NCBI GenBank assembly: GCA_020283715.1
Contig: JAIQCW010000218.1
Location: forward strand, 1 to 21,044
Direction of reading: 5' to 3'
DNA: 21,044 nucleotides
DNA from: Cytauxzoon felis
Lineage: Eukaryota > Apicomplexa > Aconoidasida > Piroplasmida > Theileriidae
The position numbers were made by a program, and so were the translations under genes. This document shows, in pieces, positions 1 through 20,851 of this stretch. The notes below the pieces were generated by a model that made no database searches, was not told where the DNA came from, and saw only the letters and a program-made list of their open reading frames with translations. Position 1 is the stretch's first letter. Every line of letters starts with the position of its first letter.

Positions 1-70
1 GATCTCAGGGAGTTTGAGGGGGAAGTAAATAGAAGAGCTGACGGCAGGAATGTAACCTCAGGTGGAGTGG
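1..70. repeat. Hairpin-module cluster cut by the window edge (intronic)
   Basis: The window opens inside the GATCTCAGGGA...GGGGGAAGTAAATAGAAGAG module. This is followed by the CTGACGGCAG hairpin (CTG/CAG stem) and the ACCTCAGGTGGA boundary motif. It lies in the intron after the 109-409 exon. Confidence 0.85.
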
Positions 71-108
71 ATTATACTTCATATTTCGTTAGTTTTCTAT
101 CAACAAAC

Positions 109-409
109 CTGCGCAGGAGAGAATATCGGATTCATTGATTAGTGTAATGGCTTTATTTTTGATGGAATTGATGAAATATTCATCGCAGTATGAGCATTTG
201 GATAATAGTACGATCATTCTGGAGAAATTTTTCGCGTTGAAGCTATTAAGTATAGTATTTGTTCTATTAATTAGCATCATCCATATTTTTTGTGTATTTG
301 GTCCTCTTTTGAGGATTTGATGGGTGATGGAAACTAATTTGGATGTACTTGCCCATGGTATACATGCTAATGTATCACTAGACACATATTTTAATACATT
401 AAAAGACAT
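109..409 (-). CDS. 5' exon of an unidentified, possibly RAP-type, gene; runs off the left edge
   Basis: The exon starts at the ATG at 407-409 and reads 100 codons plus one base to a GTTTGT donor just below position 109, a donor form also used in PRP31. Without that splice the frame closes 12 codons later. The intron then enters a hairpin-repeat cluster at 1-70 and leaves the window. The peptide is hydrophilic and helical. Its stretch from 'QKIWMMLINRTNTIL' to 'DEYFINSIKNKAITLI' resembles the N-terminal helical repeats of apicomplexan FAST-kinase-like/RAP proteins, but no diagnostic motif is visible, so the family is only a guess. The start lies 30 bp downstream of the stop of the 1241-residue gene on the same strand, so it could alternatively be a continuation of that gene by unrecognised splicing. 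Confidence 0.5.
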
Positions 410-439
410 TATATAGTGTTTATAGAGATAAAATTATAA

Positions 440-3400
440 TTATTCTCCTGGACAATCATGATGTTTTAATTTCTTGGCTTCTTTATTGAGTGAATAATCT
501 TTACCTAATATGGGTATATCACTATTACCTTTAATGTGTACAAATTCTTTATCTAGTAAATGTTGTAGATAATCATTAAAACTACAACTAGTCATATTTT
601 TATTAGAAATGTATACTTTTCCTTTATTAATTCTTGTATATGGCATATGTAATTTACTTAATACGAATCCATTAGTATTACGTTTCTTAGTTAATTTTGT
701 ATTTATTTTATTCTTTTTAAATAAAAATAATCTCATAACTCTTCTAATATTTGTAAATGTATTAGAATCCCAATTTTGCGATTGTATATACAAAAAAAAC
801 CTCGTTAATACTCTACATAAATTGAAACCAAAGTTGAATAATATATTGTAATATAAACCAGTTATTATATAATTCGTCGATGATACATCATTAAATAATA
901 ATAAAAATAACTCTAACATATAACCACCTATACTCACATGCTTACTCATCTCACAAAAACAACGTGTCAATGATAATGTTATATACGGAGTAAAATCATT
1001 CAATATTAACTCACGCATACCACGCATCCTGTAACGCATCACATTCGATAATATACACATACCACCACTTATAATACGACCTGAAGTCCAATCCTTCCTA
1101 CTATCTTCACCTCCACCTTCTACTACAGCCTTGTCTTTCCACTCGCCGTGGTGGCCTCCTCTATTTACTTCCCCCTCCGCTTCCCGTAGATCAGCTCCGG
1201 GTTTTCCACTTCCACTTGTGGTTACATCCAACACATCCTTAGCACCATCTTCCATCATTCCCATGATGGATGATCCATCTCTACCTTCACCCTTCGCTTC
1301 CCTGAGATCAGCTACGGGTTCCACCTGAGGTCCAATCCTTATCTCCACCTTAGCACCATCTTCCATCATTCCCATGATGGATGATCCATCACTAACTTCA
1401 CCACGATCTCTGGGAGTGGCTTTACTCTTTAGAGATAGGTAATTGGAAGAGCTGTCTGCAAGACCAACGGTGGTTGTAACCTCAGGTGGAGAGGCTCCAC
1501 GCCGAGTGGAAGAAGAGTTGGTAACTTCAGGTGGAGTTCCACAATGTATTAAATATTGTACATTATTGACGAGTATTTTTTTGATGATTTTATTGATATA
1601 TTTTTGAATGGTATTGCATACTAGTAGATTATAGTGTGTGGATATATTGGTGATAAGATCGATCGCATAGGGTATAAAAGAGTAATGATTTGATGCATTA
1701 GTGATTTGTATTGTATGTAATATAGATTTGAGTATAATGATAATATTATTATAATCATGTTGATAAATAAGATAATATATAATATTAATAGTAAATTTAA
1801 TTAATATTTTAATAAATCGATCGAAATAAATACATGGATATTTAATAGTATTAATAATAATCCATAATTTAATAATATTATTAATAATATTATCATTATT
1901 AAGATTAATAAAATTAATATAATAATTAATATAATGATTAATATTAATAGATAATATAGATAGGAATAAAAAGATATAAAATGATATAATATCAAATGTA
2001 TTATTATATAAATGTAATATAATTATAGTTGATAATATATCTTTAATTATAAAATAATTATTATTTAATGAAATTTTTATAGAATTAAATTTTATAAAAT
2101 TGACATCAGTAATAAAAAATTATTTATATAATATAATATAAAATTATAATTACATAAATTATTAAATAATAATTTATATAATTTATATTTATATTTATAT
2201 TTATATTTATTTTTATATATTAAATTACCATATTTTAATATATTTAAATCTATAAATTTATAAAAATTTTTTCTATTTATAATACGATTTATAAATTTAT
2301 ATATAAATTTATAATTTAATTTATATATAGATAATTCTATTATTTTTAATAATAATTTTCTTATTTCTATATTAGAATATAATAATTTATATATTAATTC
2401 ATTTATATTTATATTATTTAATATATTATATTCATTTATATTTAATAATTTTATAATTACTATTAATTTATATTTATATGGTATATTTATTAATTTATTT
2501 GTAATTAACCATATTTGACATGTAATACATATCAATTCATCATATATATATATATTTAATTTATCATTATTTATTATATTATTTATATATATTGTTATAT
2601 TATTTATATCTTTATTACATAATTTTAATTTATATATACCAATTTGTATTAATCTTAATCTCCAATATATATATTCATTATTATTATCATCTATATCATT
2701 TATAATATATCTTAAATATAATTCTATCTCCTCATTCAATCTATCCATACAATATAATAATTTTATCATTAATTCATATGATAAATTTAATATATTTAAA
2801 TTATATCCAGTCTCAACCAACCATATACATATATTAAATAATAATTTCATTATTATCATATCTATACCATCAAATATAGCCTCATCATTTATTATCATAT
2901 TTATATACTCTAATGATATATCATCATCAACATCTGTTAAATCTAATGAAGATTTACACTCAATATTACATCTGTCTTCGTCTTGCAGACAGCCTCCACC
3001 TGAGGACTTCCACTCGCCGTGGTGGCCTCTTCTATTTACCTCCCCCTCCGCTTCCCTGAGATCAGCTACGGGTTCCACTTGAGGTCCAGTACTACACTTC
3101 ATTCCATAACTACCTTCTACTCCACTTGAATTCCTTCTTGCTCTTTTCGTCTTGCAGACAGCTCCTCCACTTGAGGTATTCCACTCGCCGTGGTGGCCTT
3201 CTCTATTTATATACCCCTCAAACTCCCAGAGATCAGCTACGGGTTCCACCTGAGGTCCAGTACTACTCTTCATTCCACTCGCCGTGGTGGCCTTCTTATT
3301 TACCTCACCTCGACTCCCATAGATCGTCTCGGATAATTCGCCACGATCTCCGGGAGTGGCATTACCGTTTACGGGGAGGTAATTAGAAGAGCTCTCTGCA

Positions 3401-4278
3401 AGAGGAACAGACGTGGATTGGACCTCAAGTGGAGGAGAGCTGTCTGCAGGACAACGAGAGTTGGATTGGACCTCTAGTGGAGAGCCTCCACTGCGAGTGG
3501 AACATAAAGTTGTAACATCAGGTGTAACTTCGGATGGAATAGGTATGGAATGATTATCAATTGGAAGTTGTATATTATGATTTATGTTATAAGTTTGTTC
3601 TTCCGGGTAGAATTCACTTGTTCTTCCGGGTAGAATTTTTATGTTCTTCCGAGTAGGTTTAGAAGAAGATGTAGCATATACCTTTATACCAGGTATTCCA
3701 CTCGAGGTTACATCCAACACGATCTTAGCACCATCTTCCATCATTCCCATGATGGATGATCCATCACTAACTTCATCACCACCACGATCTCTGGGAGTGG
3801 TTTTACTCTTTAGAGATAGGTAATTGGAAGAGCTGACGGCAGGATGAAGAGAGTTGGATTGGATTTCAGTTGGTGGAGAGAGGTGGACTTCAGGTGGATT
3901 ATAATGAATTTCGGTATGATTATCAGAGTGTCTATCTTCTACATTCTCTTCATTATCATTAGTATCATTGTGTATAGTACGATTATTAATAGCTCTGGAT
4001 AATATGAGAGCAATTTTAAGTACTTTCTCTTGATGTATATCAAGTTTATGGAGTGCTAAAATATCCTTTAAACCATTAGGATCAATAAGATCATATTTAG
4101 TTATTAAACAATTTAAACTTTTATTCTTTATTAAAGTTTCAACCTTATACCTAGTAATATTGTAGAATCTATTAAGCTCTATTAAAACCTCATTATTATA
4201 TCCAGTATCCAATACAATACCATTACTCAAATCTGTATCACTACATGTAGTAGATGATAAAGAATCTATACCATACAT
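440..4278 (-). CDS. Unrecognised 1241-residue helical protein with two large in-frame repeat-derived inserts
   Basis: Exon 1 is 4278-2154 (ATG at 4276-4278). A 113-nt intron at 2153-2041 uses a GTAATT donor and AAAG acceptor. Exon 2 is 2040-440. I checked that the exon-2 frame has no stop from about 2119 down to the TAA at 440, and the splice phase (1+2) matches, so I join the two frames. The intron is the weakest part of the model. Residues about 1-124 are charged and helical with no family I recognise. Residues about 126-432 and 876-1029 are translated hairpin repeats. The rest is very rich in Ile/Asn/Leu/Tyr/Lys and looks like an alpha-helical solenoid. The basic C-terminus (KKNKINTKLTKKRNTNG) may bind nucleic acid. 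A HEAT-type scaffold or ribosome-biogenesis factor is possible, but I assign no function. Confidence 0.6.
1079..1540 (-). repeat. Exonic hairpin-repeat cluster in the 1241-residue gene (exon 2)
   Basis: About 460 bp are read through in frame as roughly residues 876-1029. On the gene strand the order is: boundary motif; CCACTCGGCGTGG hairpin; boundary; GTCTTGCAGAC hairpin; the CTCTAAAGAG plus GCCAC...GTGG double-hairpin module; the CATCATGGGAATGATGG module (twice); the GATCTCAGGGA module (twice, diverged); and CCACCACGGCGAGTGG. It contributes peptides such as SIMGMMEDGAK (twice), ADLREAEGEVN and GHHGEWK. There are no stop codons in the used frame. Confidence 0.85.
2975..3900 (-). repeat. Largest exonic hairpin-repeat cluster (exon 1 of the 1241-residue gene)
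   Basis: About 925 bp are open throughout in the gene's frame (residues about 126-432). It holds two near-identical copies of the module ending in the CCACTCGCCGTGGTGG hairpin (near 3010 and 3180), a third partial one near 3275, two copies of the GTCTTGCAGAC hairpin near the 5' end of the plus strand, and the CCATCATTCCCATGATGG module near 3740. It also holds both variants of the loop-TT hairpin (CTCTTTAGAG near 3805 and CCGTTTACGG at 3365-3374). A short AT-rich stretch near 3540-3595 may be original host coding sequence left between two insertions. Confidence 0.85.
3597..3658. repeat. Three tandem copies of a 23-nt unit (GTTCTTCCGGGTAGAATT core)
   Basis: The core starts at 3597, 3620 and 3643; the first two are identical over GTTCTTCCGGGTAGAATT and the third diverges (CCGAGTAGG). 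It is translated on the minus strand as part of 'ILPGRTSEFYPEEQ'. A similar single unit (GTTCCTCCGGGTAGAATTC) occurs at about 4596-4614 in the neighbouring intergenic cluster. Confidence 0.8.
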
Positions 4279-4478
4279 TACAACCTTTTATACCACACTC
4301 TATTAATAATGTGTGGAATACCCACACCATGACCCACGAATTATACAAATTGTATCATGTCTATCAACATATATATATTAAATCCAACACATCTACACAT
4401 TTTATACATATATTTATTCATACATTATATTAATTATTATATAAACAATTTAATTTTCATATCTACATAATCATTAAT

Positions 4479-4652
4479 TGAAGTCCAATCCACCTCTCAT
4501 TCTACTACAACACTCTCTTCGTCTTGCAGACAGCTCCTCTATTTATCTCCCCTTCCAGCTCCCGTAGATCGCTTTCGGGTACTCTAGTTGAGTTCTGTTC
4601 CTCCGGGTAGAATTCCTGTTCTTAGGGGTTGAACTATCTTCGTTCTCCCGAG
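4479..4652. repeat. Intergenic hairpin-repeat cluster, left part
   Basis: In plus-strand order it has a diverged boundary motif (TGAAGTCC), the GTCTTGCAGACAGC hairpin, the reverse form of the GGGGAA/GTAAATAG module (CTATTTATCTCCCCTTCCAG then CCCGTAGATCGCTTTCGGG), and the GTTCCTCCGGGTAGAATTC unit. It then fades into AT-rich sequence after a CTCCCGAG remnant. Confidence 0.8.
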
Positions 4653-4776
4653 TTTATATTTAATTGGAGAAAAATTCATCGATCCTCTTAGTGTAAATTA
4701 TATAAATTAAATGCTACACATCGTGCACTTGATATCTGTTCGTAAAACCAATATAGCAATCAATGGGAGCTCATCA

Positions 4777-5056
4777 TCCACCTGAGGTTACAATCACTGT
4801 CTTCTCCATCTTCTTTTCCACTCGCAATTCCACTTCTCTTCGTCTTGCAGACAGCTCTCCACCCGAGGTCGTCCTGCCGTCAGCTCTTCCAATTATCTAT
4901 CTCTAAAGAGTAGAGCCACTCCCAGAGATCGTGGCTGAAGTTAGTTATTGGACCTCAGGTGGAGACCTCAAGTGGGACCCGTAGCTGATCTCAGGGAAGC
5001 GGAGGGGGAAGTAAATAGAGAAGGCCACCACGGCGAGTGGAATGACCTCAGGTGGA
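4777..5056. repeat. Intergenic hairpin-repeat cluster, right part
   Basis: It is bounded by TCCACCTGAGGT (4777) and ACCTCAGGTGGA (5045-5056), which are perfect inverted copies. Inside are GTCTTGCAGAC, CTGCCGTCAG, the CTCTAAAGAG + GCCACTCCC...GTGGC module, two further boundary motifs, the GATCTCAGGGA...GTAAATAG module and the CCACCACGGCGAGTGG hairpin. It is the most complete intergenic example. Confidence 0.9.
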
Positions 5057-5161
5057 AGACATCTCAGTCATACTTCCTTCGACAGTCGTTTCACTCCTTC
5101 TACTCGTTCGTACTCACTACGTTCGTCTTAACTTCATTCATATATATATAAAATAATTAGA

Positions 5162-6772: not shown

Positions 6773-7120
6773 AATTATAATCTACATCTTAAAATATCTA
6801 TTATATATCATTTAAAATCTATACAATAACCACTTTCTTATATACAATACAAAAACAACAACATTCAATTCTATTTTAATCCACACCACAATATCCACTA
6901 CACTTCATTACACATCATTATATACTCTACATCATCTTCTATTATCAATATCCATTATATTATTATTCATTTATCTATATCACCATAACATCATCATACC
7001 CCAAATCTTACGTCTACATCTCTCACACATACCCTATACTCAATTATACAATTATCATTCATATAATACTATACAATCATAAACTCATATATACATATAT
7101 ATAAATATATATTTAATATA
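6773..7120. other. Intergenic AT-rich region without repeats
   Basis: It lies between the stop of the RAP gene (7121) and the start of the TLDc gene (6772), both minus strand, and is about 20% GC. It should contain the 3' end of the RAP transcript and the promoter of the TLDc gene. I see no ORF, RNA gene or hairpin module in it. Confidence 0.6.
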
Positions 7121-10100
7121 TTATACACGCTTAAATCCATTAGACAATAAATTTAATAACAATTCACGACGATTCTCATGACCCAACTTCTCCCACTCAT
7201 CTATATATATATATTTAGTATTCCAACCAGATTTCTTAAAATGATCAATCAATCTCATCGAATCACCAATTATTATCTTATAAGAATCTATACTATTCAC
7301 ACCCTCATCACCAGTCAATGGCGTCCACCATTTCAATAAATCTTCATTAGGTATACATATAATCACAGTATTATGAACATTCTCATCCTCTTCTATCACA
7401 AAATGACCCATATATACCTCAGTCACACGAGGATCAGCAGATAATATACCCAACTCATCCAAAACACTCTAAAATGAAATTAATTTTTATATAACACAAA
7501 CAAAGGGAAAGAGCAATGTTAACAACACTTGAGGTCCAATCCTACATTCCTTCGTCTTGCAGACAACTTCTCCACCCGAGGTTACAACCACTGTTCCACT
7601 CGGCGTGGTGCCTTCTCTATTTAGTTCTCCCTCCGCTTCCCTGATATCAGCTACGGGTTTTCCACTTGAGGTCCAGTACTACACATCCTTAGCACCATCT
7701 TCCATCATTCCCATGATGGATGATCCATCACTATTTTCACCACGATCTCTGGGAGTGGCTCTGCTCTTTAGAGATAGGTAATTAGAAGAGGCTCCATGCA
7801 ATGGGAACGAGAGGAGGATTGGACCTCAGGTGGAGTGGATTGGACCCCGAGTGGAGTTCAAACATTAATGTTAAATATATGTTATGAACTAACTTTGAGT
7901 GTGATGAATGTGGTGGTATCTTTGAATTCTGTGCATAATTGATCTTGTTTTTTGAACCAGTAATAGCATGGTAGATTTTGAAGTGAGTTTTTAATATCTT
8001 CATGACCATTATAGAATCCATTAATTAACATATTGATATAAATTTGATATACATTTCTATATGTATCAGCATTTAATGTGGATTTAATATCTTTATATTT
8101 ATCTAATTCTTCAATTATATTTGTAAATTTAATCTCAAAATTATTATTCATTATACCATAATTCGATATTACAGATAATAAATTCACCTTATGCTTTATA
8201 TCTAAATCATTAAAATTAAATTTCATACTCAATTCATCATCAATTATTAATGACATTAAATTACTCAAATCACTATTCTTTATTGATAAATCAATCATAC
8301 ATGATACCACATCCACTATATTATCCACATACATAGAATTATCACCAATCTCCAATTTACTCATAAACCTAAAAGAATTATATATCTAATTTCAACTCAA
8401 ATCCACCGTAGGTCTTGCAGACAGCTCTCCACCTGAGGTTACAACCTTGCGTTCTCCTGCAGAGAGCTTCCTTATTTACTTCCCCCTTCGCTTCCCATAG
8501 ATCGCTTCCAGGTTCCACTTGAGGTTAAGTTCTAATCTCGACGAGATACGTCTAAAGTGACGGAATCCATACTTGTTCAGATATCTCAATGAGGATAACA
8601 TGAAAACGAATGACATCTCTTCATTCCAATACAATCATCAAATACCTCTTCAATGAGATATTGACATTTAAATTTCATTAAATAATCATTCTTCAATCTT
8701 CATGAGTTTCCCCAGAAATTGAGGATTTCCTTCAAATTTTGGTAGTAAAAATGAAGTAATGAAATTAGTGATTGGACCTCAAGTGGAGAACCCGCAGCTG
8801 ATCTCAGGGAAGCGAAGGGGGAGGTAAATAGAAGAGCTCCATGCAATGGGAAAGATGGACCTCAGGTTGTGTGTATGTAAATAATAAACGAACCAATTGA
8901 TGAGTCTTTTGAATAGTAGTTCATGTTTGATTCTTAATTTGGTAAGGATATTGATGATACCGATGATGACCTGGATTGATTGATGATGATGAGATGGATA
9001 TAACTAACATTAATATGTATATTTTGGAAATCAGTTTCTAATATTTGTAAAAGGATATCTTTAATTAATTCATTTGGGAATAATTTACTATGATTAATAT
9101 TACATAATAAAATATATAAATCCCTATAAAAATAAATAATAATAATTTAATCAATCAAAATATAAAAAGAGATTTATGCTCACATACAGTAGTATCCACT
9201 CCACCTCTCTTTTCCACTCGCCGTGGTGGCTCTTCTATTTATCTCCCCTTCCAGCTCCCATAGATCGCTTCCAGGTATTCTACTCCCACTTGAGGTCTGT
9301 TCTTAGGATGATGAACTCCTATCAATTAGTTTAATGGTTTTAATGGTTAATATCATGTGTATATTTACAAGTTTTTAATTTGGATAATTATGACCAAGGG
9401 GACCGAGGAAAATTTTTTGATAATTTTCAACCCGGAAGAACGAAAATACTTCAACTACTAAGAACAATGATAACACTGGCCACGATCTCCGGGAGTGGCT
9501 TTACTCTTTAGAGATAGATAAATAGAAGAGGCTCCAAGCCGAGTGGAATGCGAGGTTGTAACTTCAGGTGGAGTAGATAATAATGATGTAAAAAATATAA
9601 AGAACGAACTTGGGTTGTAATTGTTTTAGATATGTTTTTGAATGATTGATAATAATTTCATCTAATAATGATGATGGTTTATAGTTATTATTTTTAGGTA
9701 ATTTAAGATTATATTTTGATATTTGTAATAATTTAATATAATTTTTAGAGAAAATAAATTTTGGTATAAGTATATTTAATATTGTATCAATTAATATTAA
9801 TTCATTATTATTATATGAATAAATTAATAATGATATCAATTCATTATCATTTAATGTACAATAATGTAATAATAATTTCATATTTAATACATCTATTATT
9901 ATATTCTTATTATATCTAGATGATCTCAATAAATAAATCAACTTCCTTATCGGTAATATTTTCAATAACCTCTCAATATCCATATTATCATTCAATATCT
10001 CATATAATCTAACACAATCATCCTTAGATAATACCTATATTATTATTATTATTTACACACTTTATACTGAATTCACTCGAGGTCCAACCCACATTTCTTC

Positions 10101-13100
10101 TCCAACCTCTCTTCGTCTTGCAGACAGCTTCCTCTATTTACTTCCCCTTCCAGCTCCCGTAGATCGCTACGGGTACCACATGATGTTAATTTCTAATCTC
10201 GGTGAGTTAAGGATAAAGTGACGGAATCAATGTTTGTCAGGATATCTCAATGAATATAAATTGGATTGAAGTGAGGATGAGTAAATCCAATACAATCATC
10301 AAATTCCTTTTCAATGAGATATTAACATATTAAATTCATCTAATAATCACCCCACAATCTTCATGAGTTTCCCCAGAAATTCAGGATTTCCTTCAAATTT
10401 TAGGGGTAAAAATGAAGAAGTAGAAGTCAGTGATGTAACCTCAGGTGGAGACCTCAAGTGGTCCCGTAGCTGATCTCTGGGAAGCGGAGGGGGAAGTAAA
10501 TAGAGAAGCCTCCACGGCGAGTGGAAGATAAGGTTGTAACCTCAGGTGGAAGTGGAACCTGGAAGCGATCTACGGGAGCTGGAAGGGGAAGTAAATGGAA
10601 GAAGCTGACGGCAGGACGAAGATATGTGGATTAGACATAAGGTGTAGGTATCATTACAATGTTTTATGTAATGATATGATTGGTATGGTTCAACTTACAA
10701 AGAGTAGTTGTAGATTATAAAAGTTGTAAAGATTGTAGTCATTATTATTGAATTTGGTGAGATGATTGATTAATTTCCCTTCTAATATTAGATTGATTGA
10801 TTTATTATTCATATTGAATAGATTTAAATATTTTAATAAATTTATACATTGAATTATATTTAATGAATATATAACATCTATTATATCATTTGATTTCAAT
10901 GATTTTAATGAATTTAATATATTCATTAACCATTCATTTATTATTACATTATTATTATCATTACACTCTACAAAATCTATTAAATCTATACATTTTCTTC
11001 CACTTGAGGTTACAACCACCGTTCCACTAGGCGTGGAGCCTCCTCTATTTAGTTGTCCCTCCGCTTCACGTAGATCAGCTACGGGTGATGAATGATGAGT
11101 ACTTCCATCAATTCTAAATGTGTAATCAATTATATTAATTAATTGACCAAGAGTATAATCAGTTAATTTCATATTGATTATATTGATCATATTATTAATA
11201 CAATTGGGTATTAATTCATTTATATTTGAAATGTTTGTTAAACAATTATAAATATTTATAAAATCATCAGTATCATAATTATTTAAATTATTCCCAATAT
11301 TATATTGCCATATATATTCAATTATACTATTACTACAATTTAATATATCATCATTAACCTCTACCCTATTCTGTAACATTAATATACCATCAATTATATT
11401 CATTATTATTATACTATTCAATATACTCTCATCATTATTATTATTCATCCTCTTTATATTATTCATCGTATATCTAAAACTACTCAATATAAAATACATC
11501 ATCTCCTTATCATCACTATTACTCATCACTATCATCAACATTCTCGACCACTTCTCCATATCACTACAATTCATCACCATCATCCTAAAAATTATAATAT
11601 CAAAATTATATCAATGTAACAACTCCAACGAATATAGTAAATGATACAATTGAGGTTCATCTTTTCCACTAGGCGTGGTGCCTCCTCCATTTATTTCCCC
11701 TTCCAGCTCCCGTAGATCGCTTCCAGGTTCCACTTGAGGTTATAAACTAATCTCGACGAGATATGACTAAAGTGACTGAATCCATGTTTGTTCGGATATC
11801 ACAATGAATATAAATTGGAATGAAGTGAGGTTTCTTAAACTAAATACAATTATCAAAAACCTATTCAATGATGTATTGATATCAGAATTACATCTAATGT
11901 TCATTCCATAATCTTCATGAGTTTCCCCAGAAATTCAGGATTTCCTTCAAATTTTGGTAGTAAAAATGAAGTAGTGAAAATAGTGATTGGACCTCGAGTG
12001 GAACCCGTAGCTGATCTCTGGGAAGCGGAGGGATAACTAAATAGAAGAGGCCACCACGGCGAGTGGAAAGACTTCAAGTGGAAGTGGAACATCGGATGTG
12101 TGTCTAAAATACCTGAGATGGTCATCTAGGATAAGTTTGCATTTGGAAGGTAATTTGAGTTTGTATAGATAATCGATTGTATTTAAGTCACAATGTTTAA
12201 TAATTGTGGGTGTTTTATTCAATATTGAAATAATCTATTGATGATGATAATAAAATTATTCTTAAAAACTAACCTGATCATGTAAATCATGTGAATCTAT
12301 CGAATGTAATTTCAATATATCCAATAAATTTATCGATAATACCAACTTCTTCAAATCATTCATTCTATTATCATTCACCAGCATCTATCATATAAATATT
12401 ATCAAACTTAAGCTAACGTAGTGAGCACTCCACCCGAGGTCCAATCACTATCTTCACCTCTTCCACTAGGCGTGGAGCCTCTCCTAATTACCTATCTCTA
12501 AAGAGTATAACCACTCCCAGAGATCGTGGCGGAAGTTTAGTTATTGGACCTCAAGTGGAATACCCGAAGCTGATCTCAGGGAAGCGGAGGGGGAGGTAAT
12601 TAGAAGAGGCCTCCACGCCTAGTGGAAAGAAGAGTAGGATTGTAACCTCGGGTGAGTGATACTGCATGATTTAAACGTACATTTTTATATTCAATGAGGT
12701 GTTTGATTGCGATATTAATGAGTGGTCCATAGGAGGTATGTAGTGAGTGTTTTCCGATGTAAATGGTTGTATTCCTCAATTCATTGAAGAAGAGCTTATA
12801 ATCTTGAATGTTAAATTTAGTGGTATTTTCTGGCGATAGACATTTTTCTAAAGTTAAACCTAGGTCATTTAGGGTATTTCCTTCGTCATCTTTGGTGTTG
12901 TAGATGGCTTTAGGTATTTTAAGTAATGATAAAATAACACGTTGTCTATTATTATTGTTAATGGGAGTATCATTTGGCAACTTTAAGTCTTTGAACAAAG
13001 TGTCCATAGAATTTAAAATATGTCGTTGTGTTTTGTCATTGTTTATTTTATTTATAGCTGAACAGAAGTCATTTAAATTAGTACTGGAATTTCTCAATAA

Positions 13101-13157: not shown

Positions 13158-13297
13158 TATAATTTCAACTGAAATCTATACATTTTTCTGAACAATATAT
13201 CTCATATCATTAGTTTCTATACTATACACTTCCCCATGGGTGTTGGTGTAATACTTTGCCAAAGATAAAAGTAATAGTACCAAATTTTACATCAAAT
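13158..13297. promoter_or_regulatory. Shared divergent promoter region of the RAP gene and PRP31
   Basis: Only 140 bp separate the two divergent start codons, so the promoters and 5' leaders of both genes must overlap or lie here. It is AT-rich with no hairpin module. I see no recognisable core-promoter element that I can name. Confidence 0.5.
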
Positions 13298-13300
13298 ATG
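13298..13300 (+). other. 3-nt coding portion of PRP31 exon 1 (ATG only)
   Basis: The ATG is followed directly by GTATGT and a 38-nt intron (13301-13338) ending TTCTTCAG. The next exon then begins AGT ACA TTG GCT GAT, giving MSTLAD, which fits the start of PRP31 proteins. The second exon has no in-frame ATG of its own near its start. The 5' UTR part of exon 1 cannot be bounded from sequence. Confidence 0.8.
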
Positions 13301-15939
13301 GTATGTTTGTGTAAATTATAATTTCATTTATTCTTCAGAGTACATTGGCTGATAGTTTCCTCGAGGATTTAGAAAATCTCGAAAATGAAGGTGATGAAGA
13401 TGGATACATTGAGGGAGACTTGGTAAAGTTGGAGTATAATGACGATGATGACGACAATTTACCCATAATTGATGCTGTAGAAGAGTATTTTAACGAAAAT
13501 TGTGCCTCCTGTAACGATTATTCACAACTCGTCAAAGATACCAAACTCAATTCATTCATAGAGGTATGAATCACTACTTAAACAAAGTATATACACATTC
13601 ATCTGAAGTCCAATACTATTCCTTCTCCAACTCTCTTCGTCCTGATGTCGTCTTGCAGACAGCTCTTCTATTTACTTCCCCTCGGATTCCCTGAGATCAT
13701 CCTCGGTATGTCTACCCATAACAACAGGTATTTAACCCAGAATAACGTACCTATGGTCTAGTATATGTAACCTCAAGTGGAGAACCTGGAAGCGATCTAC
13801 GGGAGCTGGAAGGGGAAGTAAATAGAAGAGGCTCCACGCCTAGTGGGAAGACCCCAGGTGGTGTGGATTGGACCTCGAGTGGACAACCATCATTTATTGT
13901 GTATAATTATAATATTTTGTTTAGAAAATAAAGGCATTGACATTTGATAAGAATGTGAAGGCTAGTGAGGATGTTTTGATAAATGAGTGTAATACGATGG
14001 TGAAGGATATTGATAATGAGATTATAAGTATATATAATTATGTACGCGATATATATTCTAAAAGGTTCCCAAAATTAGAATCTATAGTATATTCTCCATT
14101 AGATTATATAGCTGTAGTTAAAAGAGCACAAAATGAAACGGTATTTTGATATATAATAATATATATAATAAATATATAATTAGGATTTTACTAAGATTGA
14201 TCTAAGTGATCTTTTACCCAATACAATGATCATGGCTATTACTGTAGCCAGTACAATGTCATCTGGATCTTATCTATCAGCACAAATCTTAAATAAGGTA
14301 CGCCTCAAATAACATCATACCAATCATATAGGCACTCACCGCATGTAATGAAGGAATGCTACTAGAAGAATTCCGCAATAGCGTAAGTACACTTATGAAA
14401 ATTTTATCATCATAATACACCATTCCACTCGAGGTCCATCCTGCCGTCAGCTCTTCTATTTACCTATCTCTAAAGAGTAAAGCCACTCCCGGAGATCGTG
14501 GCAGTGAAGATACTGATTGGACCTCAAGTGGAAGCGGAATACCTGGAAGCGATCTACGGGAGCTGGAAGGGGAAGTAAATAGAAGAGGCCACCACGGCGA
14601 GTGGAACATTGGTTGTAACCTCGAGTGGAATGGTATTATAGTGATAATAAACTTCACATTGATAAAATAATCCTTACAATATAGATATTGTTATATTTGG
14701 AGAGTAGGATGAGTATGATAGCACCGAATGTTAGTGTGATATTGGGTAGTCCATTGACGGCTAGGTTGATAACTCATGTTGGTGGTTTGAGTAATTTGGC
14801 TAAGATGCCTGCACAGAATATAATGTTAATTGGTGGTAATCGTAGGGGTACGATAATACCAGGTATAATATATTCTTGTGAGATTATACAGAATGCTATA
14901 CCTAGTGTTAAGCATAGAGCAGTAAAACTTGTATCTGGTAAAGTATCATTAGCAGCCAAAATTGATTTATTTAAAGAATATACTAATGGAGAAATGGGTA
15001 CAATCTATCGCAATTTTATTTTACAATCACTTTTGAAAGTTTGTTTACATCATAATAACATATAATAACCCCATAGGCACAAGAACCACCACCTGCACCA
15101 CAAAAAAAATCATTACCAGTACCCGATGAAAAAAAAGGTAATAAAAGAGGTGGGAAAAGATATCGCAAAATGAAAGAAAGATATTCCATCGGAGAATATA
15201 GAAAACAAGCAAACAGAATCAAATTCAATGAACAAGAAGACGAATATGGGCTCGAAATCGGTACGTACATACAAACATTAAGAAAAACAACCTGTCTTAT
15301 TCACTCCATCCTCTTTTCGTCTTGCAGACAGCTCTCCACCTGAGGTTACATTCCTGCCGTCAGCTCTTCTATTTACTTCCCCCTTCGCTTCCCTGAGATC
15401 AGCTGCGGGTTCTCCACCTGAGGTCCAAACACTACACTTCCGCCACGATCTCAGGGAGTGGCTTTACTCTTTAGAGATAGGTAAATAGAGGATGCCACCA
15501 CGGCGAGTGGAAAAGATGGACCTCAGGTGGAACGGCGAGTGGAACAGAAGTATAGTGATTGGACCTTGAGTGGACCGTATAAATATTTAGCTGCAAGATC
15601 CTATAGAATATATACATATTTATTTCAGGTAGTGGTTTGGGAATGTTGGGTAAATCTACGGGTTATGGTGCATTGGTTATTCAGCCTAAACAGACTAAGA
15701 TTAAATTACGTATGTTTAATATGGGGTTATTTAATATTTCTTTAGCTAAGAAACGTCAAATGGCTATGCAAAGTAGTGGTACTACTAATGGATTATCATC
15801 ATCATTGGTATTTACTCCATTACAGGGTATTGAATTATGTAATCCTGATGCTAGTAGACATTCTAGTAAAAAAACAAATACTATATTAGATAATACTGAA
15901 GGATTTTTAAAAGTTAATAAACGTAGTGAAATATCGTAA
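13298..15939 (+). CDS. PRPF31: U4/U6 snRNP protein PRP31 (eight exons, 485 residues)
   Basis: Exons: 13298-13300, 13339-13563, 13925-14140, 14184-14297, 14332-14382, 14685-15038, 15077-15260, 15629-15939. All introns are GT-AG and in phase, and the product (485 residues) is close to human PRPF31 (499). The N-terminus (M-STLADSFLEDLENLE) matches the family. Residues about 76-190 are the NOSIC/coiled-coil region. The Nop domain starts near residue 204 with 'YLESRMSMIAPNVS' and 'LAKMPAQNIMLIGG'. The C-terminal domain shows 'RGGKRYRKMKERYSIGEYRK' and 'FTPLQGIELCNP'. The protein clamps U4 snRNA and the 15.5K protein and tethers U4/U6 to U5 in the nucleus. The first coding exon is just ATG. Introns 2, 5 and 7 (302-368 nt) carry hairpin repeats; the other four are 34-43 nt. 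Confidence 0.95.
13602..13883. repeat. Hairpin-repeat cluster in PRP31 intron 2, head-to-head arrays
   Basis: The left array runs in reverse (GTCTTGCAGAC, then CTCTTCTATTTACTTCCCCT at 13663-13682). The right array runs forward and includes the perfect complement AGGGGAAGTAAATAGAAGAG at 13811-13830, then CCACGCCTAGTGG and ACCTCGAGTGGA. The pre-mRNA could fold into a long stem here. It lies within the intron at 13564-13924. Confidence 0.9.
14419..14634 (+). repeat. Cleanest hairpin-repeat unit, with 17-nt perfect terminal inverted repeats (PRP31 intron 5)
   Basis: The left end ACCATTCCACTCGAGGT (14419-14435) and right end ACCTCGAGTGGAATGGT (14618-14634) are perfect inverted repeats. Inside, in order: CTGCCGTCAG; CTCTAAAGAG + GCCACTCCCGGAGATCGTGGC; an inner ACCTCAAGTGGA; the GATCTACGGGAGCTGG...GTAAATAG module; and CCACCACGGCGAGTGG. 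The sense frame used by exonic copies is open across this intronic copy too. It lies within the intron at 14383-14684. Confidence 0.92.
15303..15574. repeat. Hairpin-repeat cluster in PRP31 intron 7
   Basis: It contains GTCTTGCAGAC, CCACCTGAGGT, CTGCCGTCAG, the reverse GTAAATAG-type module, another CCACCTGAGGT, the reverse GCCACGATCTCAGGGAGTGGC + CTCTTTAGAG module, CCACCACGGCGAGTGG and boundary motifs. Relative to PRP31 its GATCTC and CTCTTTAGAG modules are antisense, the opposite of the unit in intron 5. It lies within the intron at 15261-15628. Confidence 0.9.
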
Positions 15940-16010
15940 AATGAATGGGGTACATGGGGTTAATTTCCCCAACATATATGGGATTGCGATTATAATATTT
16001 CATCACCCCA
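15940..16010. other. 71-bp convergent intergenic gap with a small hairpin
   Basis: It separates the stops of PRP31 (plus) and CWC27 (minus), so both 3' ends must form within or across it and the transcripts probably overlap. It contains GGGG-TTAATTT-CCCC at 15956-15970, which could fold on either strand. Any role in 3'-end formation is only a guess. Confidence 0.5.
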
Positions 16011-18060
16011 TCACCACCTTTGTGATTCTAAATTAGTTTTATTATTACCATGTAATTTATTGCGCTAAAATTTTATATTTAATATAATCTTCAAACTTAC
16101 ATTTTTCTTTAAATTTGCAACGAATTCAATGCGATTATCTTTACCTTTTATGGGGTCAAATACCTCCAACTAAATTTTTATAAACTAAAATTTATGGGGT
16201 AGAAACATACAGCATCCTTTGCAGCATCAACCTCATAAGCCTATAATGTGGGGTACAATAAATCTAAAGTTAAATACCCTATTGGAATCTACAGCAAATC
16301 TCAATTTCTTCCCAGCAAACCATGAACCATCAGCTAAATCTAAAAAGTTGTGCATATAAATAATGATATTCAATATACCTTCATCTGTATCATCCGGTAC
16401 TTTATTTATCAACTTCTCATCACGTGATATCGATGATAATCTCTTAGTAAAATCGGCTAAACGATCCATAATCTAATAATAAATATGGGGATAATTATCA
16501 AAAATTCCCCACATACATTTTTCTTGGGTAATTTTTTCATTTGTTTCCTAGTCTTGTAATCTTTCATTTTATAATCATCAAATGTATGCGAATATCCCTT
16601 ATCTGATTGATTATCAACAGTATCAGATGACTCCCTTAAACGTTTCTCAAGCATTTCAATTTCATTTCTCCTATCCTCATCAGATGGAAGGTCGTCAGTA
16701 TCCTCTTCCTTCCCACTTGAGGTCTTTCTACTAGGCGTTCCACCTGAGGTCCTTTCTTTCCACTCGCCGTGGAGGCTTCCTTTATTTACCTCCCCCTTCA
16801 GCTCCCGTAGATCACTTTCGGGTACTCCTCCACTCGAGGTTACATCCTCATTACCTTCTCTTCCGCCACGATCTCCGGGAGTGGATTTACCGTTTACGGG
16901 GAGTGAATTAGAGGAGCTGTCTGCAAGACCGACCTCAGATGTAGAGTTGTTTGCATCCCCATTATTTAGAGTTATTGTGTTTTTGGAAAAATGTGGGTCA
17001 TGTATTAGATCATGTGCATTTTTAATTTTGGTCTTTTCATCAGTTTCGTCGTCACAATCATCACCAAATGATAATAAACATTTCTTTCTGTAATTAAAAT
17101 GTTTAATGGGGTAAAAATTTTAGACAAACTTTGTACTCAGTGCAACATTAACTTCAACCTCTTCAACTTCGTCATCACTATATGTTGTATTGTCAATCAA
17201 TCTTGGTATAATATCAGGGAAAGGATTATTCAAAACCTATATGGGGGTAGTGTTGAAAATTCATTTTATATTAAATGTTAATTAATTACCTCTACACTAA
17301 TAATCTTTGGTGGATTTATAGGCCTATCATTACTCTTATCAATCTCACATTCACTAAGCTTCATCAAATTATATACAGTATGACCCTCCACTTTACCAAA
17401 TAACGTATATTTACCATTCAAACAATCAGCCCTTTCTATAAAAATAAATAATAAGAATTCATCATACACATACCAAGAGTTATAAAAAATTGACTGTTGT
17501 TACTACATTTACCACCCGTATTAGCCATACCAACCATACCTATAGTTATGAATATCCACCGAAGATTAGAAAACATTATCTTTCCTCTACCTTCGCCACG
17601 ATCTCCGGGAGTGCTATACTCTTTAGAGATGACTAATTGGAAGAGCTGTCTGCAAGACGAAGGAAAGGTGGATTGAAACCTCAGGTGGAGAGCCTCCACG
17701 GTGAGTGGAACGGGTGAATCAACTTTCTTAACGTACCTCTGTATCTGAATTTGAGCCTAGAGTGTGTTTCATTTTCGAAAGGTTCACCATATATGGATTC
17801 TCCGCCTATTGAAGTTATATGTGTGAAATATTTGGATTACCATTTCCGGTACCGGTAGGATCACCAGTTTGTATTAAGAACTGCGGTATAATGCGATGAA
17901 AAATGCAATTATTGTAGAATCCTTCTATACATAATTGTACAAAATTACGTGCAGCTTTTGGACACTGTGTGCTCCATAATCTGATATCAAGTTCACCATG
18001 TGACGTATTGATTATAACCCTTCCACGACATGGTGGCTCTAAACAATAGACTTCTGACAT
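16011..18060 (-). CDS. CWC27: Spliceosomal cyclophilin CWC27 (eleven exons, 495 residues)
   Basis: Exons (high to low): 18060-17841, 17805-17737, 17539-17474, 17435-17290, 17236-17130, 17087-16517, 16472-16379, 16339-16278, 16240-16211, 16169-16101, 16064-16011. All are GT-AG and in phase; the product (495) is close to human CWC27 (472). The N-terminal cyclophilin domain includes 'YCLEPPCRGRVIINTSHGEL', 'FHRIIPQFLIQTGDPTGTG', 'MANTGGKCSNNSQFFITLG' and 'TLFGKVEGHTVYN'. The tail has 'LLSFGDD', 'DLIHDP' and a C-terminal 'SWFAGKKLRFA' to 'FDPIKGK' like the family. CWC27 joins the activated (Bact) spliceosome with CWC22. The Arg of the peptidyl-prolyl isomerase active site (FHR) is present; whether the isomerase is active cannot be told. 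Nine introns are 35-53 nt. Intron 2 (197 nt) and exon 6 carry hairpin repeats, the latter giving residues about 251-328. Confidence 0.94.
16713..16944 (-). repeat. Exonic hairpin-repeat cluster in CWC27 exon 6
   Basis: About 232 bp are translated in frame as 'GLADSSSNSLPVNGKSTPGD', 'SDLRELKGEVNKGSLHGEW' and 'TSGGTPSRKTSSG'. On the gene strand it runs boundary motif, GTCTTGCAGAC, CCGTAAACGG (the alternative loop-TT/AA hairpin), GCCACTCCC-type stem, boundary, GATCTACGGGAGCTG module, CCACGGCGAGTGG, boundary twice. Host family sequence is recognisable on both sides in one frame. Confidence 0.9.
17592..17710. repeat. Hairpin-repeat cluster in CWC27 intron 2
   Basis: It holds the GCCACGATCTCCGGGAGTG...CTCTTTAGAGAT module, the GAAGAG junction, CTGTCTGCAAGAC, ACCTCAGGTGGA, and CCACGGTGAGTGG (hairpin with a changed loop). 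It lies within the intron at 17540-17736, the only CWC27 intron longer than 53 nt. Confidence 0.9.
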
Positions 18061-18223
18061 TAATAATAATAGTATTTATATTTAAAACTACTTCACCATT
18101 AATAAAGGGTCAATCCCACATGTACATTACAAATGAGTAGACGAATGTATACTCTACACATAAACACAACTGATGCGCCACATATAACAAATAAATTTAA
18201 TACAATATTCACCATTTATAAAT
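18061..18223. other. Intergenic gap TBCE to CWC27, AT-rich
   Basis: These 163 bp separate the TBCE stop and the CWC27 start (both minus strand). It must hold the TBCE 3' end and the CWC27 promoter. It is repeat-free and I see no RNA gene. Confidence 0.5.
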
Positions 18224-20851
18224 TTAATCATTGTATTTCGTTCTTGTATAATTAAGACTCCTACTTTGAGCTCTTATCTGATATCCATCCTGGATTCCGT
18301 AATACTCCAATTCCACATCATCGTTCTCCATTTCAATACATAAAGGCATATTCTATATATACATATATTATCATTTATAATCGGAAACGTCATCATATAC
18401 TTCACCTAAGTCCAATCTAACCACTCTTTCTCTTCCACTCGAGGTCGTCTTGCAGACAGCTCTTCCAATTACCTATCTCTAAAGAGTAAAGCCACTCCCG
18501 GAGATCGTGGCGATGATGGAGGTAGTAGGATGTAACATCAGGCGGAACCCGTAGCTGATCTCAGGGAAGCGGAGGGGGAAGTAAATAGAAGAGGCTCCAC
18601 GCCTAGTGGAATGACCTCAAGTGGAGAAGCTGTCTGCAAGACGACCTCGAGTGGAAGTGGAAGAAGAGTAGGATTTGACCTCTAGTAAAGTGGGAAATTT
18701 TCTATTGTATAAACATACCCCATCGTTGTATAAGAGTATTAGATCGTCTAGTTTGATTTTAAAGTGTTTGCTGCATATGATTTTGACATCTCGTATAGTT
18801 GCTGTTGGTGGTAATTTTTTAAAGATGGGGTCTTTTGTTAGGCTATCTGAATCACCATCTGGTATTAATTGTAATTTAATCAATTTGGTTATTTTAGATA
18901 TAGTGGTAGTGGATTTCTCTTCATTTATGTAATGGATTGATCTTAAACGATCAATATGTCTCATATTATTACCATAACTCATACTTGTTTGATTATATAA
19001 TTTGGAATCTTTATCTGCTAGCATTATATAATAACGTTCTGCATTTATTCTTTCAGTCTTTGTAATTTCTGATCCATTGAGTACTTGTAGGTTAGGGAAT
19101 AATGAAATTAAAACCTGTCTGTCTATATTTGATGATGATTGATGTTCTATAGTATTCAATTTCAATCTTAATGATTTTAAATTTATAAATATATATGATA
19201 TCATATTTATATATATCCAATCTGATATATAATTATCATCTAAATTCAATTCATGTAATGAATTATGTGGCATATGGTGTTTTTTATCCTCACAAATATC
19301 TGAATCATATGGGGTGGATTTAGAAGAATTTTCCTCTATATTACAACTATATTTACTATATAGATTTATAATATCATTATATATATCTACAGTATTGTTA
19401 TAAATACCCCCATATTCACCCCCTTTACCCCATTCATAACCATGGGGTATATATGTACATTTCAATTTATTATTTGATAAATTAAGTTTCTTTAGATTAA
19501 AACATTGGAATATTAAATTAAAAATACTATACCAATTCCATATATAATTACCACTAAGATCTAAAGATGTTAAATTAGTGGGGTAAATTTCCGATTTTAA
19601 ATCATAATAATAATTATTACATAATGATAATGATATTATATTATCACTATTATAATCAACTAATCTAAATATATAATCCAATGATATCATTGTATAATTT
19701 AAACTTAAATATTTTAACCCCATATTAAATTTAAATAATTTACCCCATGAATCGAATTTGAATAAATTACCCGACAAATCAAGTATTTCAAGATTAGATA
19801 ATATTGATATTATGGGGATAATATCAGATAATTTATATAATAAATTATTATTTAAATATAATTCACCAACACGTGGAAATTTATAATTAATATTATTATT
19901 AATAATAGATATCATATAAGATGATAAATCTATAATATATAAATTAGATAATTCATTATAAAAATCTATAGCATCAGATTTACCAACAAATTCTATTTTC
20001 TTATCCCCATTTATATAATTATCCCCATCCCCATTTAATTCATTATCTGATTCATTATATATATAACGTTTAATAATAGCATCATTAAAACTAATACCAA
20101 TATTAATATCATTAATATATACCAATGAACATGAATTATTAAATTTATTCAATAAATTCATAATATCAATATCAATATTACCATAAACATTATACAATTC
20201 ATCCTTAATCAACTCCAATAATAATAATCTACCACTCTCAAAATAACCCATACCATTATGATCACCTATAAACATACCATCCCACTCTATACCCAATACA
20301 TCATATAAACATAAAGATTTATCCATCATAGATTCCATCCCTTCACCTAAGGTTACAACCTTATCTTCCTCTTGTAGACAGCTCTCCATTTGAGGTCCAG
20401 TCCTGCCGTCAGCTTCTTTATTTACTTCCCCTTCCAGCTCCCGTAGATCGCTTCCAGGTATTCCACTTCCACTTGAGGTTACATCCTCACTACCTACTTC
20501 ACCTCCACTACCATCACCTTCGCCACGATCTCCGGGAGTGGCTTTACTCTTTAGAGATTGGTAATTAGAAGAGGCCTCCACGGCTAGTGGAACAGAGGTA
20601 GCTATAACCTCAGCTGGAGAGCCATCACGGCCAGTGGACGACAAAGCGGATTGGACCTCAGGTGGATATGTTATGGATGTGGTATCGGTAATGGTATCAT
20701 TATTGAGATTATTGAATGAGATGGTACCGGATCTTGATCTTTTATCTTTGAATCCGATGATATTAGTGTTATTTAATTTACCTATCCATAAAATGGTTCC
20801 AATATTGTTATCATTGTTATGGACGCGTTGACCGATTACAAAATTTGACAT
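18224..20851 (-). CDS. TBCE: Tubulin-folding cofactor E (two exons, 753 residues)
   Basis: Exon 1 is 20851-18719, the intron 18718-18353 (GTATGT-ATAG, 366 nt, repeat-filled), exon 2 18352-18224; phase 0. TBCE binds alpha-tubulin and helps assemble or dismantle the tubulin heterodimer in the cytosol. A diverged CAP-Gly domain begins at the N-terminus ('VIGQRVHNNDNNIGTILWIG') and appears to resume as 'LYDVLGIEWDG' near residue 185 ('GDHNGMGYFES' next). Between them lies an insert of which residues about 62-169 are translated hairpin repeats. Leucine-rich repeats run from about residue 320 to 590 ('LEILDLSGN', 'LTSLDLSGN', 'LKKLNLSNNKL') and end with the TBCE signature 'LFPNLQVLNGSEITKTERIN'. 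A ubiquitin-like domain fills residues about 650-753 and needs exon 2 ('MENDDVELEYYGIQDGYQIR') to be complete. Confidence 0.93.
18403..18688. repeat. Hairpin-repeat cluster in the TBCE intron
   Basis: It contains CCACTCGAGGT, GTCTTGCAGAC, the CTCTAAAGAG + GCCACTCCCGGAGATCGTGGC module, the GATCTCAGGGA...GTAAATAGAAGAG module, CCACGCCTAGTGG, boundary motifs, a second CTGTCTGCAAGAC in inverse orientation, and a last boundary. Its CTCTAAAGAG and GATCTC modules are antisense to TBCE. It lies within the intron at 18353-18718. Confidence 0.9.
20344..20666 (-). repeat. Exonic hairpin-repeat cluster in TBCE exon 1
   Basis: About 323 bp are read in frame as residues about 62-169, giving 'PPEVQS', 'SSNYQSLKSKATPGDRGEG', 'DVTSSGSGIPGSDLRELEG' and 'EVNKEADGRTGPQ'. 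Modules on the gene strand: boundary; two diverged CCAC...GTGG hairpins; CTCTAAAGAG + GCCACTCCCGGAGATCGTGGC; boundary; GATCTACGGGAGCTGG...GTAAATA; CTGACGGCAG; boundary; and a diverged GTCT-type hairpin. Confidence 0.9.

Follow-up and report, generated by a model that had tools for sequence, protein, structure and literature searches.

A high-copy family of hairpin-ended foldback repeats in the nuclear genome of Cytauxzoon felis, with copies in frame inside reading frames

A 21,044-nt stretch of Cytauxzoon felis DNA (contig JAIQCW010000218.1 of assembly GCA_020283715.1; hereafter the window) carries a family of short, GC-rich repeats. Many copies of this family lie in open reading frames (ORFs), in one orientation and one frame, a feature that the earlier note on this DNA had overlooked. 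The family is best explained, with a probability of roughly 0.6, as short foldback DNA elements resembling miniature inverted-repeat transposable elements (MITEs), which spread as DNA and whose exonic copies persist only where orientation and frame keep them readable.

A full element has two inverted, outward-facing arms around a centre, and each of its ends is a hairpin cassette, interchangeable among five kinds and delimited by the 11-bp CCACNNGAGGT. The elements would spread as DNA, often to nearby sites, as the relatedness of the copies suggests, and their end cassettes may be exchanged by recombination or conversion. Entry would occur into introns, intergenic DNA and exons. Survivors in exons, judging from the observed pattern, would mainly share a single orientation and frame and have a net length that is a multiple of three, since insertions of other kinds disrupt the gene. 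Such copies would add 37-197 hydrophilic residues at tolerant, hydrophilic sites of the protein. The exonic copies are most likely translated, as their reading frames suggest, and the elements would be DNA passengers tolerated through a readable frame rather than peptides selected for function.

Abundance of the repeat family

A BLAST library grown from the repeat clusters of the window delimits 22 element intervals, covering 28.2% of its length, with a GC content of 0.48 against 0.26 outside. The 11-bp CCACNNGAGGT occurs 46 times, compared with 0.02 occurrences expected from dinucleotide shuffles. The motifs listed in the earlier note are therefore real, and its estimate of about 19 clusters filling a quarter of the region was close to these figures.

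The proposal that the clusters belong to one high-copy family, to be checked by a search of the rest of the genome, is likewise borne out. In 20 stretches taken at arbitrary positions, a sample that is not strictly random because 14 of the 20 contigs already stood among the first genome-search matches, 69 elements in 16 stretches account for 10.7% of 182,273 bases. This figure was obtained with an enlarged library (window clusters, class II copies and first-round matches); window-derived clusters alone cover 8.3% of the same bases. The density of about one copy per 2.6 kb suggests, by extrapolation from this sample, some 3,000 elements in the genome. The genome searched comprises 8.62 Mb in 181 contigs, and the first pass yielded 3042 candidates, of which the best 40 were scored and gave 47 matches. 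Four of the 20 stretches contain no element (L013, L021, L024 and L030).

The window begins at base 1 of its contig, and this contig start falls within an element (positions 1-82), so the assembly may break at these repeats. The same circumstance could be taken to indicate an assembly or contamination artefact. This explanation is scarcely credible, as matches occur on dozens of contigs with different flanks, the architecture is consistent, and the behaviour of the frames follows the host genes.

Searches with one element word each, which are not a homology test, gave 0 matches in viral contigs and 0 in bacterial and archaeal genomes. No description of the repeat family was found in open-licence full text, in agreement with the earlier statement that no described element of this make-up is known from apicomplexan nuclear genomes, and the family is apparently unreported.

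Element architecture

The architecture was derived by parsing the window together with four of the sample stretches and then counting arm by arm over the fetched loci. After removal of duplicates from overlapping loci, this count comprises 81 arm pairs and 195 arms; counts of codon positions, R-to-R distances and P8 hairpins may still include such duplicates. From the middle outwards, an element consists of the centre, an R motif, the arm body, GTAAATAGAAGAG, a hairpin tail, a linker and a further R. Neighbouring arms at most 450 nt apart face outwards in 65 of 72 cases, and 65 more arms are unpaired.

Most outward pairs (45 of 65) join an A4 arm to an A6 or A9 arm, and 40 of these 45 enclose a centre of 37-135 nt. 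Pairs of A6/A9 arms (19 of 65) enclose centres of 264-315 nt, and a single pair joins A4 with A4. The A4 arm carries either CTCTTTAGAG (h4) or CCGTTTACGG (h4x), and some of the longer centres between A4 and A6/A9 arms contain the P8 hairpin, CCATCATTCCCATGATGG.

The element ends are symmetric and read YTCCAC...GTGGR; the base preceding CCAC is T in 27 of 28, and the base following GTGG is A in 24 of 28. Five tail types exist, each found with all three arm types. Of 64 elements, 12 carry one and the same tail type at their two ends, where 16.2 would be expected, and the five hairpin tails assort independently. Additional R-tail cassettes are often stacked at element ends, and whole elements occur in both orientations, with the A4 arm on the right in 26 and on the left in 19. 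The earlier description of clusters varying in order, number and orientation thus applies to the tails, the stacked cassettes and the orientation of whole elements; it does not apply to the arms and centre, which are ordered. The foldback tendency, examined by folding one copy per class, gives z values of -10.7 for class II and -4.5 for class I.

Two further proposals were rejected. The terminal R motifs of an element give no sign of pairing or covarying with each other, since their variable letters are shared in 19 of 52 pairs against 17.0 expected. Cassette length in multiples of three is not a family trait, the R-to-R distances being distributed 46, 46 and 31 by remainder. Rfam returned no match in the window at gathering scores.

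Copies inside reading frames

Of 81 elements, 17 are enclosed by a frame that stays open for 40 codons or more on each side. With at least 60 open codons required on each side, 21 of 80 elements are flanked by long frames and 16 of these 21 are read through, whereas about 1 in 18 would be expected on the assumption that a single orientation and frame permit it; the 80 include 21 window elements, of which 5 are read through. In the same 60-codon test, random segments outside elements give a similar result, with 340 of 421 read through.

Arm pairs, of which the exonic ones come from 14 sources, allow a more direct comparison of frame. In ORFs of at least 250 aa, all 21 arm pairs are in frame with no stop between them, and their 13 different lengths are multiples of three throughout. 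Of the 60 pairs found elsewhere, 29 are in frame and 41 contain a stop. Read-through copies are read in one direction and one frame, in which the protein text SSNYLSLKSKATPGDRG ... PVADLREAEGEVNR recurs. Of the 150 rows listed by a protein search across the genome, 83 lie in stop-free ORFs of at least 300 aa; this list favours readable copies, and some ORFs appear in it repeatedly.

These frames bear on an alternative in which the exonic copies never reach the protein, being removed from the message as introner-like introns or skipped by translational bypass. Some copies do lie in probable introns of the Prp31 gene (introns recognised by eye), and at the right end the R motif has the sequence CTCAG/GTGG, resembling a 3' splice site. 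A removed insert, however, needs no frame, so the uniform frame and the lengths divisible by three among the arm pairs of long ORFs count against removal, as does read-through in 16 of 21 elements flanked by long frames. We consider this alternative improbable.

The orientation of exonic copies carrying the common h4 arm is set by stops: when this arm is translated outwards in the frame in which GTAAATAG remains open, 0 of 63 copies are open. The orientation of h4x copies is not fully set in this way. Taken together, orientation, frame and length match the outcome expected of a filter that removes disrupted genes.

Exonic peptides are hydrophilic, with a mean hydropathy of -0.77, and the 25 residues on each side of the insertion are more hydrophilic than the remainder of the host protein (18 sites, p 0.006). 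Centres of at least 90 nt, the size of those bearing P8, are commoner in exonic pairs than in the others (13 of 21 vs 17 of 60, Fisher p 0.009).

A second alternative holds that the exonic copies are protein linkers selected for a useful peptide. Their uniform richness in Ser, Gly and Glu, together with this hydrophilicity, is consistent with such a role, as is the presence of several elements in some ORFs, including one in sample stretch L014 that holds four. In addition, 20 of 20 P8 centres keep DGSSIMGMMEDGAK within two substitutions and 14 keep it exactly, a count made by eye with a search pattern that favours the word. However, only 8 of the 20 P8 centres lie in ORFs of at least 250 aa, and non-coding copies have the same sequence and similar conservation. 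The exonic copies have no clear excess of variation at third codon positions (5-12 copies per arm); codon-position variation is alike in exonic and other copies (exonic n = 12, 12 and 5 per arm), and these small samples therefore give no clear sign of peptide selection. Selection at the peptide level was accordingly rejected as a candidate within the limits of these samples, and the linker explanation appears very unlikely.

Class II centres

The class II elements have a long centre. A search with the 233-nt core of this centre gave 394 first-pass candidates, of which the best 40 were scored. The fetched loci contained 37 core matches; 30 distinct matches of at least 150 nt were kept and 28 were aligned, leaving out one cut by a contig end (L036) and one more distant (L020:252). 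The 28 centres have a mean identity of 80% and are unevenly conserved.

Pairs of centres on the same contig are 84.1% identical (n = 12), against 80.3% for other pairs (n = 366; 0 of 5000 permutations). The two closest pairs, on contigs C31 and C14, have members that are separated by 2-3 kb and bear different tails. These comparisons give the best indication of local spread and of tail exchange.

Two functional readings of the centre were rejected. A coding role is contradicted by the lack of an open frame in all 28 copies and of any three-base periodicity. As a structured RNA it has two-sided change in 1 of 10 predicted pairs, with a covariation term of -0.04.

Proposed mobility and counter-evidence

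We infer that the elements are mobile; movement could depend on a trans-acting transposase of a family beyond those searched, or on hairpin-driven recombination. Several observations weigh against the proposed spread of foldback elements filtered by frame, and they concern movement, the class II centres and the exonic copies in turn.

Target-site duplication is absent in the 28 elements with R at both ends: their flank score is 28, against 22.7 (sd 7.3) in permutations, of which 128 of 500 reach 28. Inverted flanks were also considered and do not exceed permutation. The families rve, DDE_3 and DDE_Tnp_4 have no match in the genome, with positive controls; other transposase families were not searched. 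RVT_1 matches occur only in one frame, which matches telomerase, and PF14214 (Helitron) has no match, but its control was equally silent. The earlier note spoke of the repeats as having invaded the region, a wording to which neither the target-site test nor the search with rve, DDE_3 and DDE_Tnp_4 lends support.

The 28 non-coding class II centres differ from their consensus by 821 substitutions against 7 indels, a paucity of indels that plain neutral decay does not explain, and one that is partly an effect of choice because window copies and top-scoring matches make up 20 of the 28. Four-gamete failures are common in these centres (1294 of 1830), and a PHI-like recombination test inside the centre is not significant (0.699 vs 0.707), so recurrent mutation is indistinguishable from recombination there.

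Of the 21 elements between long frames, 5 are not in frame; these are putatively placed in introns or in gaps between genes. In reverse, 7 of 11 copies of the rarer h4x arm are open, and both strands are open through the element at 16713-16955. For copies of this type, orientation is therefore not determined by stops alone. Finally, 16 of 80 elements are exonic, where 11% is predicted from a coding share of 68.8% and a pass rate of 1 in 18, assuming one orientation and one frame (P = 0.012). A filter against broken genes therefore fits in order of magnitude, with a mild excess.

A third alternative accommodates part of this counter-evidence. The repeats could be old, immobile, domesticated units, such as chromatin boundaries, terminators or regulatory sequences, multiplied segmentally and homogenised by gene conversion. 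The missing target-site duplication, the lack of a transposase in the families searched, the indel-poor and unevenly conserved class II centres and the greater likeness of copies on the same contig are all consistent with such units. Against them stand the presence of copies inside open frames of unrelated genes, the occurrence of both orientations, and the lack of a consistent position relative to the genes of the window, as judged by eye. Domesticated units thus seem unlikely, and spread as foldback DNA elements remains the preferred explanation.

Host genome and elements of the window

A gene of the window with a Nop domain is Prp31, in which introns are evident by eye, and the genome contains a telomerase frame. 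The Prp31 gene with its introns indicates a eukaryotic nucleus, and together with telomerase it upholds the earlier assignment to a nuclear genome. A protein search with one Prp31 exon gave no match. Matches to FAINT, a domain typical of Theileria and related parasites, number 145 in the genome. The sampled stretches have a G+C content of 31.5%. The published C. felis assembly comprises 361 contigs and 9.1 Mb with a G+C content of 31.8% and 68.8% coding sequence (PMC3748084). This agreement and the FAINT domains support the apicomplexan placement of the host proposed earlier. In the available text of that report, 'repeat' appears a single time, describing a tandem repeat within one gene (PMC3748084).

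The elements of the window and their host genes are listed in Table 1.

Table 1. Repeat elements and host genes of the window, with positions in nucleotides, strand where assigned, and basis of the assignment
Feature	Position	Strand	Basis
Element right part (w, tail t3, R), cut by contig start	1..82		BLAST interval
Class I element, two P8 hairpins, in frame within ORF 443-2119 (-)	1108..1537	-	BLAST interval, frame test
Compound element, in frame within ORF 2095-4287 (-)	2953..3542	-	BLAST interval, frame test
Class I element with P8, in frame within ORF 2095-4287 (-)	3689..3880	-	BLAST interval, frame test
Half element (t1, w, A9 arm)	4479..4634		BLAST interval
Class I element, A4 arm left, outside long ORFs	4774..5064	+	BLAST interval
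Class I element with P8, in probable intron of minus-strand gene	7519..7855	-	BLAST interval; intron by eye
Class II element, A9/A6-type arms around 233-nt core centre (8538-8770)	8390..8900		BLAST interval, centre alignment
Left arm of long-centre element (partner 9471-9580)	9190..9298	-	BLAST interval
Right arm (A4, h4) of long-centre element (partner 9190-9298)	9471..9580	-	BLAST interval
Class II element with additional A9 arm	10075..10648		BLAST interval
Half element, in frame within ORF 10693-11610 (-)	10984..11092	-	BLAST interval, frame test
Class II element	11643..12115		BLAST interval
Class I element outside long ORFs	12415..12659	+	BLAST interval
Element in Prp31 intron, two BLAST intervals (13604-13715, 13759-13883)	13604..13883		Intron boundaries by eye
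Class I element in Prp31 intron, sense orientation	14418..14633	+	BLAST interval; intron by eye
Class I element in Prp31 intron, opposite to gene orientation	15300..15574	-	BLAST interval; intron by eye
h4x-type element, open through ORF 16460-17119 (-) and shorter frame 16611-17090 (+)	16713..16955	-	BLAST interval, frame test
Half element near cyclophilin exon	17581..17716		BLAST interval
Class I element, probable 3' intron of TBCE gene, antisense to gene	18410..18692	+	Intron by eye
Class I element in frame in tubulin-specific chaperone E gene, CAP-Gly region	20339..20666	-	Frame test, profile match
Tubulin-specific chaperone E (TBCE) reading frame, host of element	18722..20851	-	PDB 9m1k_E, E 2.3e-15
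Prp31 gene (Nop and Prp31_C domains in its exons), with elements in three introns	13345..15939	+	Domain matches; introns by eye

The element in the TBCE frame was examined against the CAP-Gly profile. With the frame intact, the CAP-Gly profile is matched at positions 1-23 of 65 (E 0.0057). Deletion of the element leaves the match at 1-23 with E 0.00012, and deletion of the element together with flanking loop residues extends it to 1-43 (E 8.2e-6, 26.1 bits, against a curated cut-off of 26.5). These deletion matches place the element in a loop that is longer than that of the profile even without the insert.

Three further observations concern the surroundings of the elements. On contig C159, an element match (6838-7041) and a FAINT match (7315-7470) share a 497-aa frame, and the element may lie inside a FAINT-family gene. 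A second small repeat, GTTCTTCCGGGTAGAATT, has 5 matches in the window at no more than three mismatches, against 0.02 expected, at sites 3597-3660, 4597-4614 and 9424-9441; words resembling it occur within or beside elements of sample stretches L006 and L014. Window positions 2001-2500 have a GC content of only 5.4% and lie partly within ORF 2095-4287, which carries GC-rich elements.

Comparison with known systems

MITEs and foldback transposons are short, high-copy, inverted-repeat elements that fold strongly on themselves. The present family resembles them in its inverted ends, its shortness, copy number and strong self-folding, and in class II centres without coding capacity. In contrast to MITEs, it has no target-site duplication and no partner transposase was found in the families searched, while its five interchangeable end cassettes and frequent in-frame exonic survivors are further points of difference. 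Short interspersed nuclear elements (SINEs), which are retroposed by the reverse transcriptase of a LINE and have target-site duplications, differ in that target-site duplication is absent here and RVT_1 is found only in the telomerase frame. Introners, whose insertion into an exon gives rise to a spliced intron, would not need the frame that exonic arm pairs keep here in 21 of 21 cases. Helitrons are marked by a Rep/helicase partner and asymmetric ends with a 3' CTRR; the ends here are symmetric.

According to a survey of apicomplexan transposons, Apicomplexa seem to lack class II transposons, the MITE candidates of that survey were discarded, and no transposons are reported in C. felis (PMC9141347). 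If the family, which makes up about a tenth of the sampled sequence, is mobile, it would overturn this absence for one apicomplexan lineage. The repeats are also relevant to gene prediction and to the choice of antigens in C. felis, since the same repeat peptide would occur in numerous predicted proteins.

Palindromes inside mitochondrial protein genes have been described in Nematomorpha and in Magnusiomyces yeast (PMC6649704). Both cases are organellar; in Nematomorpha the repeats are perfect and seemingly actively maintained, and in Magnusiomyces the palindromes are skipped in translation. Here, in contrast, the repeats are nuclear, imperfect and in frame.

The nearest analogue in behaviour, and one of the two that the earlier note had named for their style, is provided by Rickettsia palindromic elements (RPEs), with which the family shares in-frame palindromic elements in unrelated protein genes. 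RPEs are about 150 bp long, form ten families and lie in ORFs in nearly half of cases (PMC10969869). Both are short, palindromic and present in many copies, with a large share in frame within protein genes. RPEs are bacterial, whereas the present elements occupy a eukaryotic nucleus with introns at roughly one copy per 2.6 kb and are built from exchangeable arms, centres and tails; the likeness described here is one of behaviour. The entry of palindromes into coding sequence is a question so far tied to Rickettsia, and the family, if the proposed explanation is true, would provide a nuclear example of palindromic DNA that enters coding sequence on a large scale and persists through its reading frame. 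More tentatively, and with less confidence than we place in the foldback explanation itself, it could be a eukaryotic counterpart of RPEs, with hundreds of translated copies, ends traded as cassettes and perhaps hairpin-driven movement without a classical transposase.

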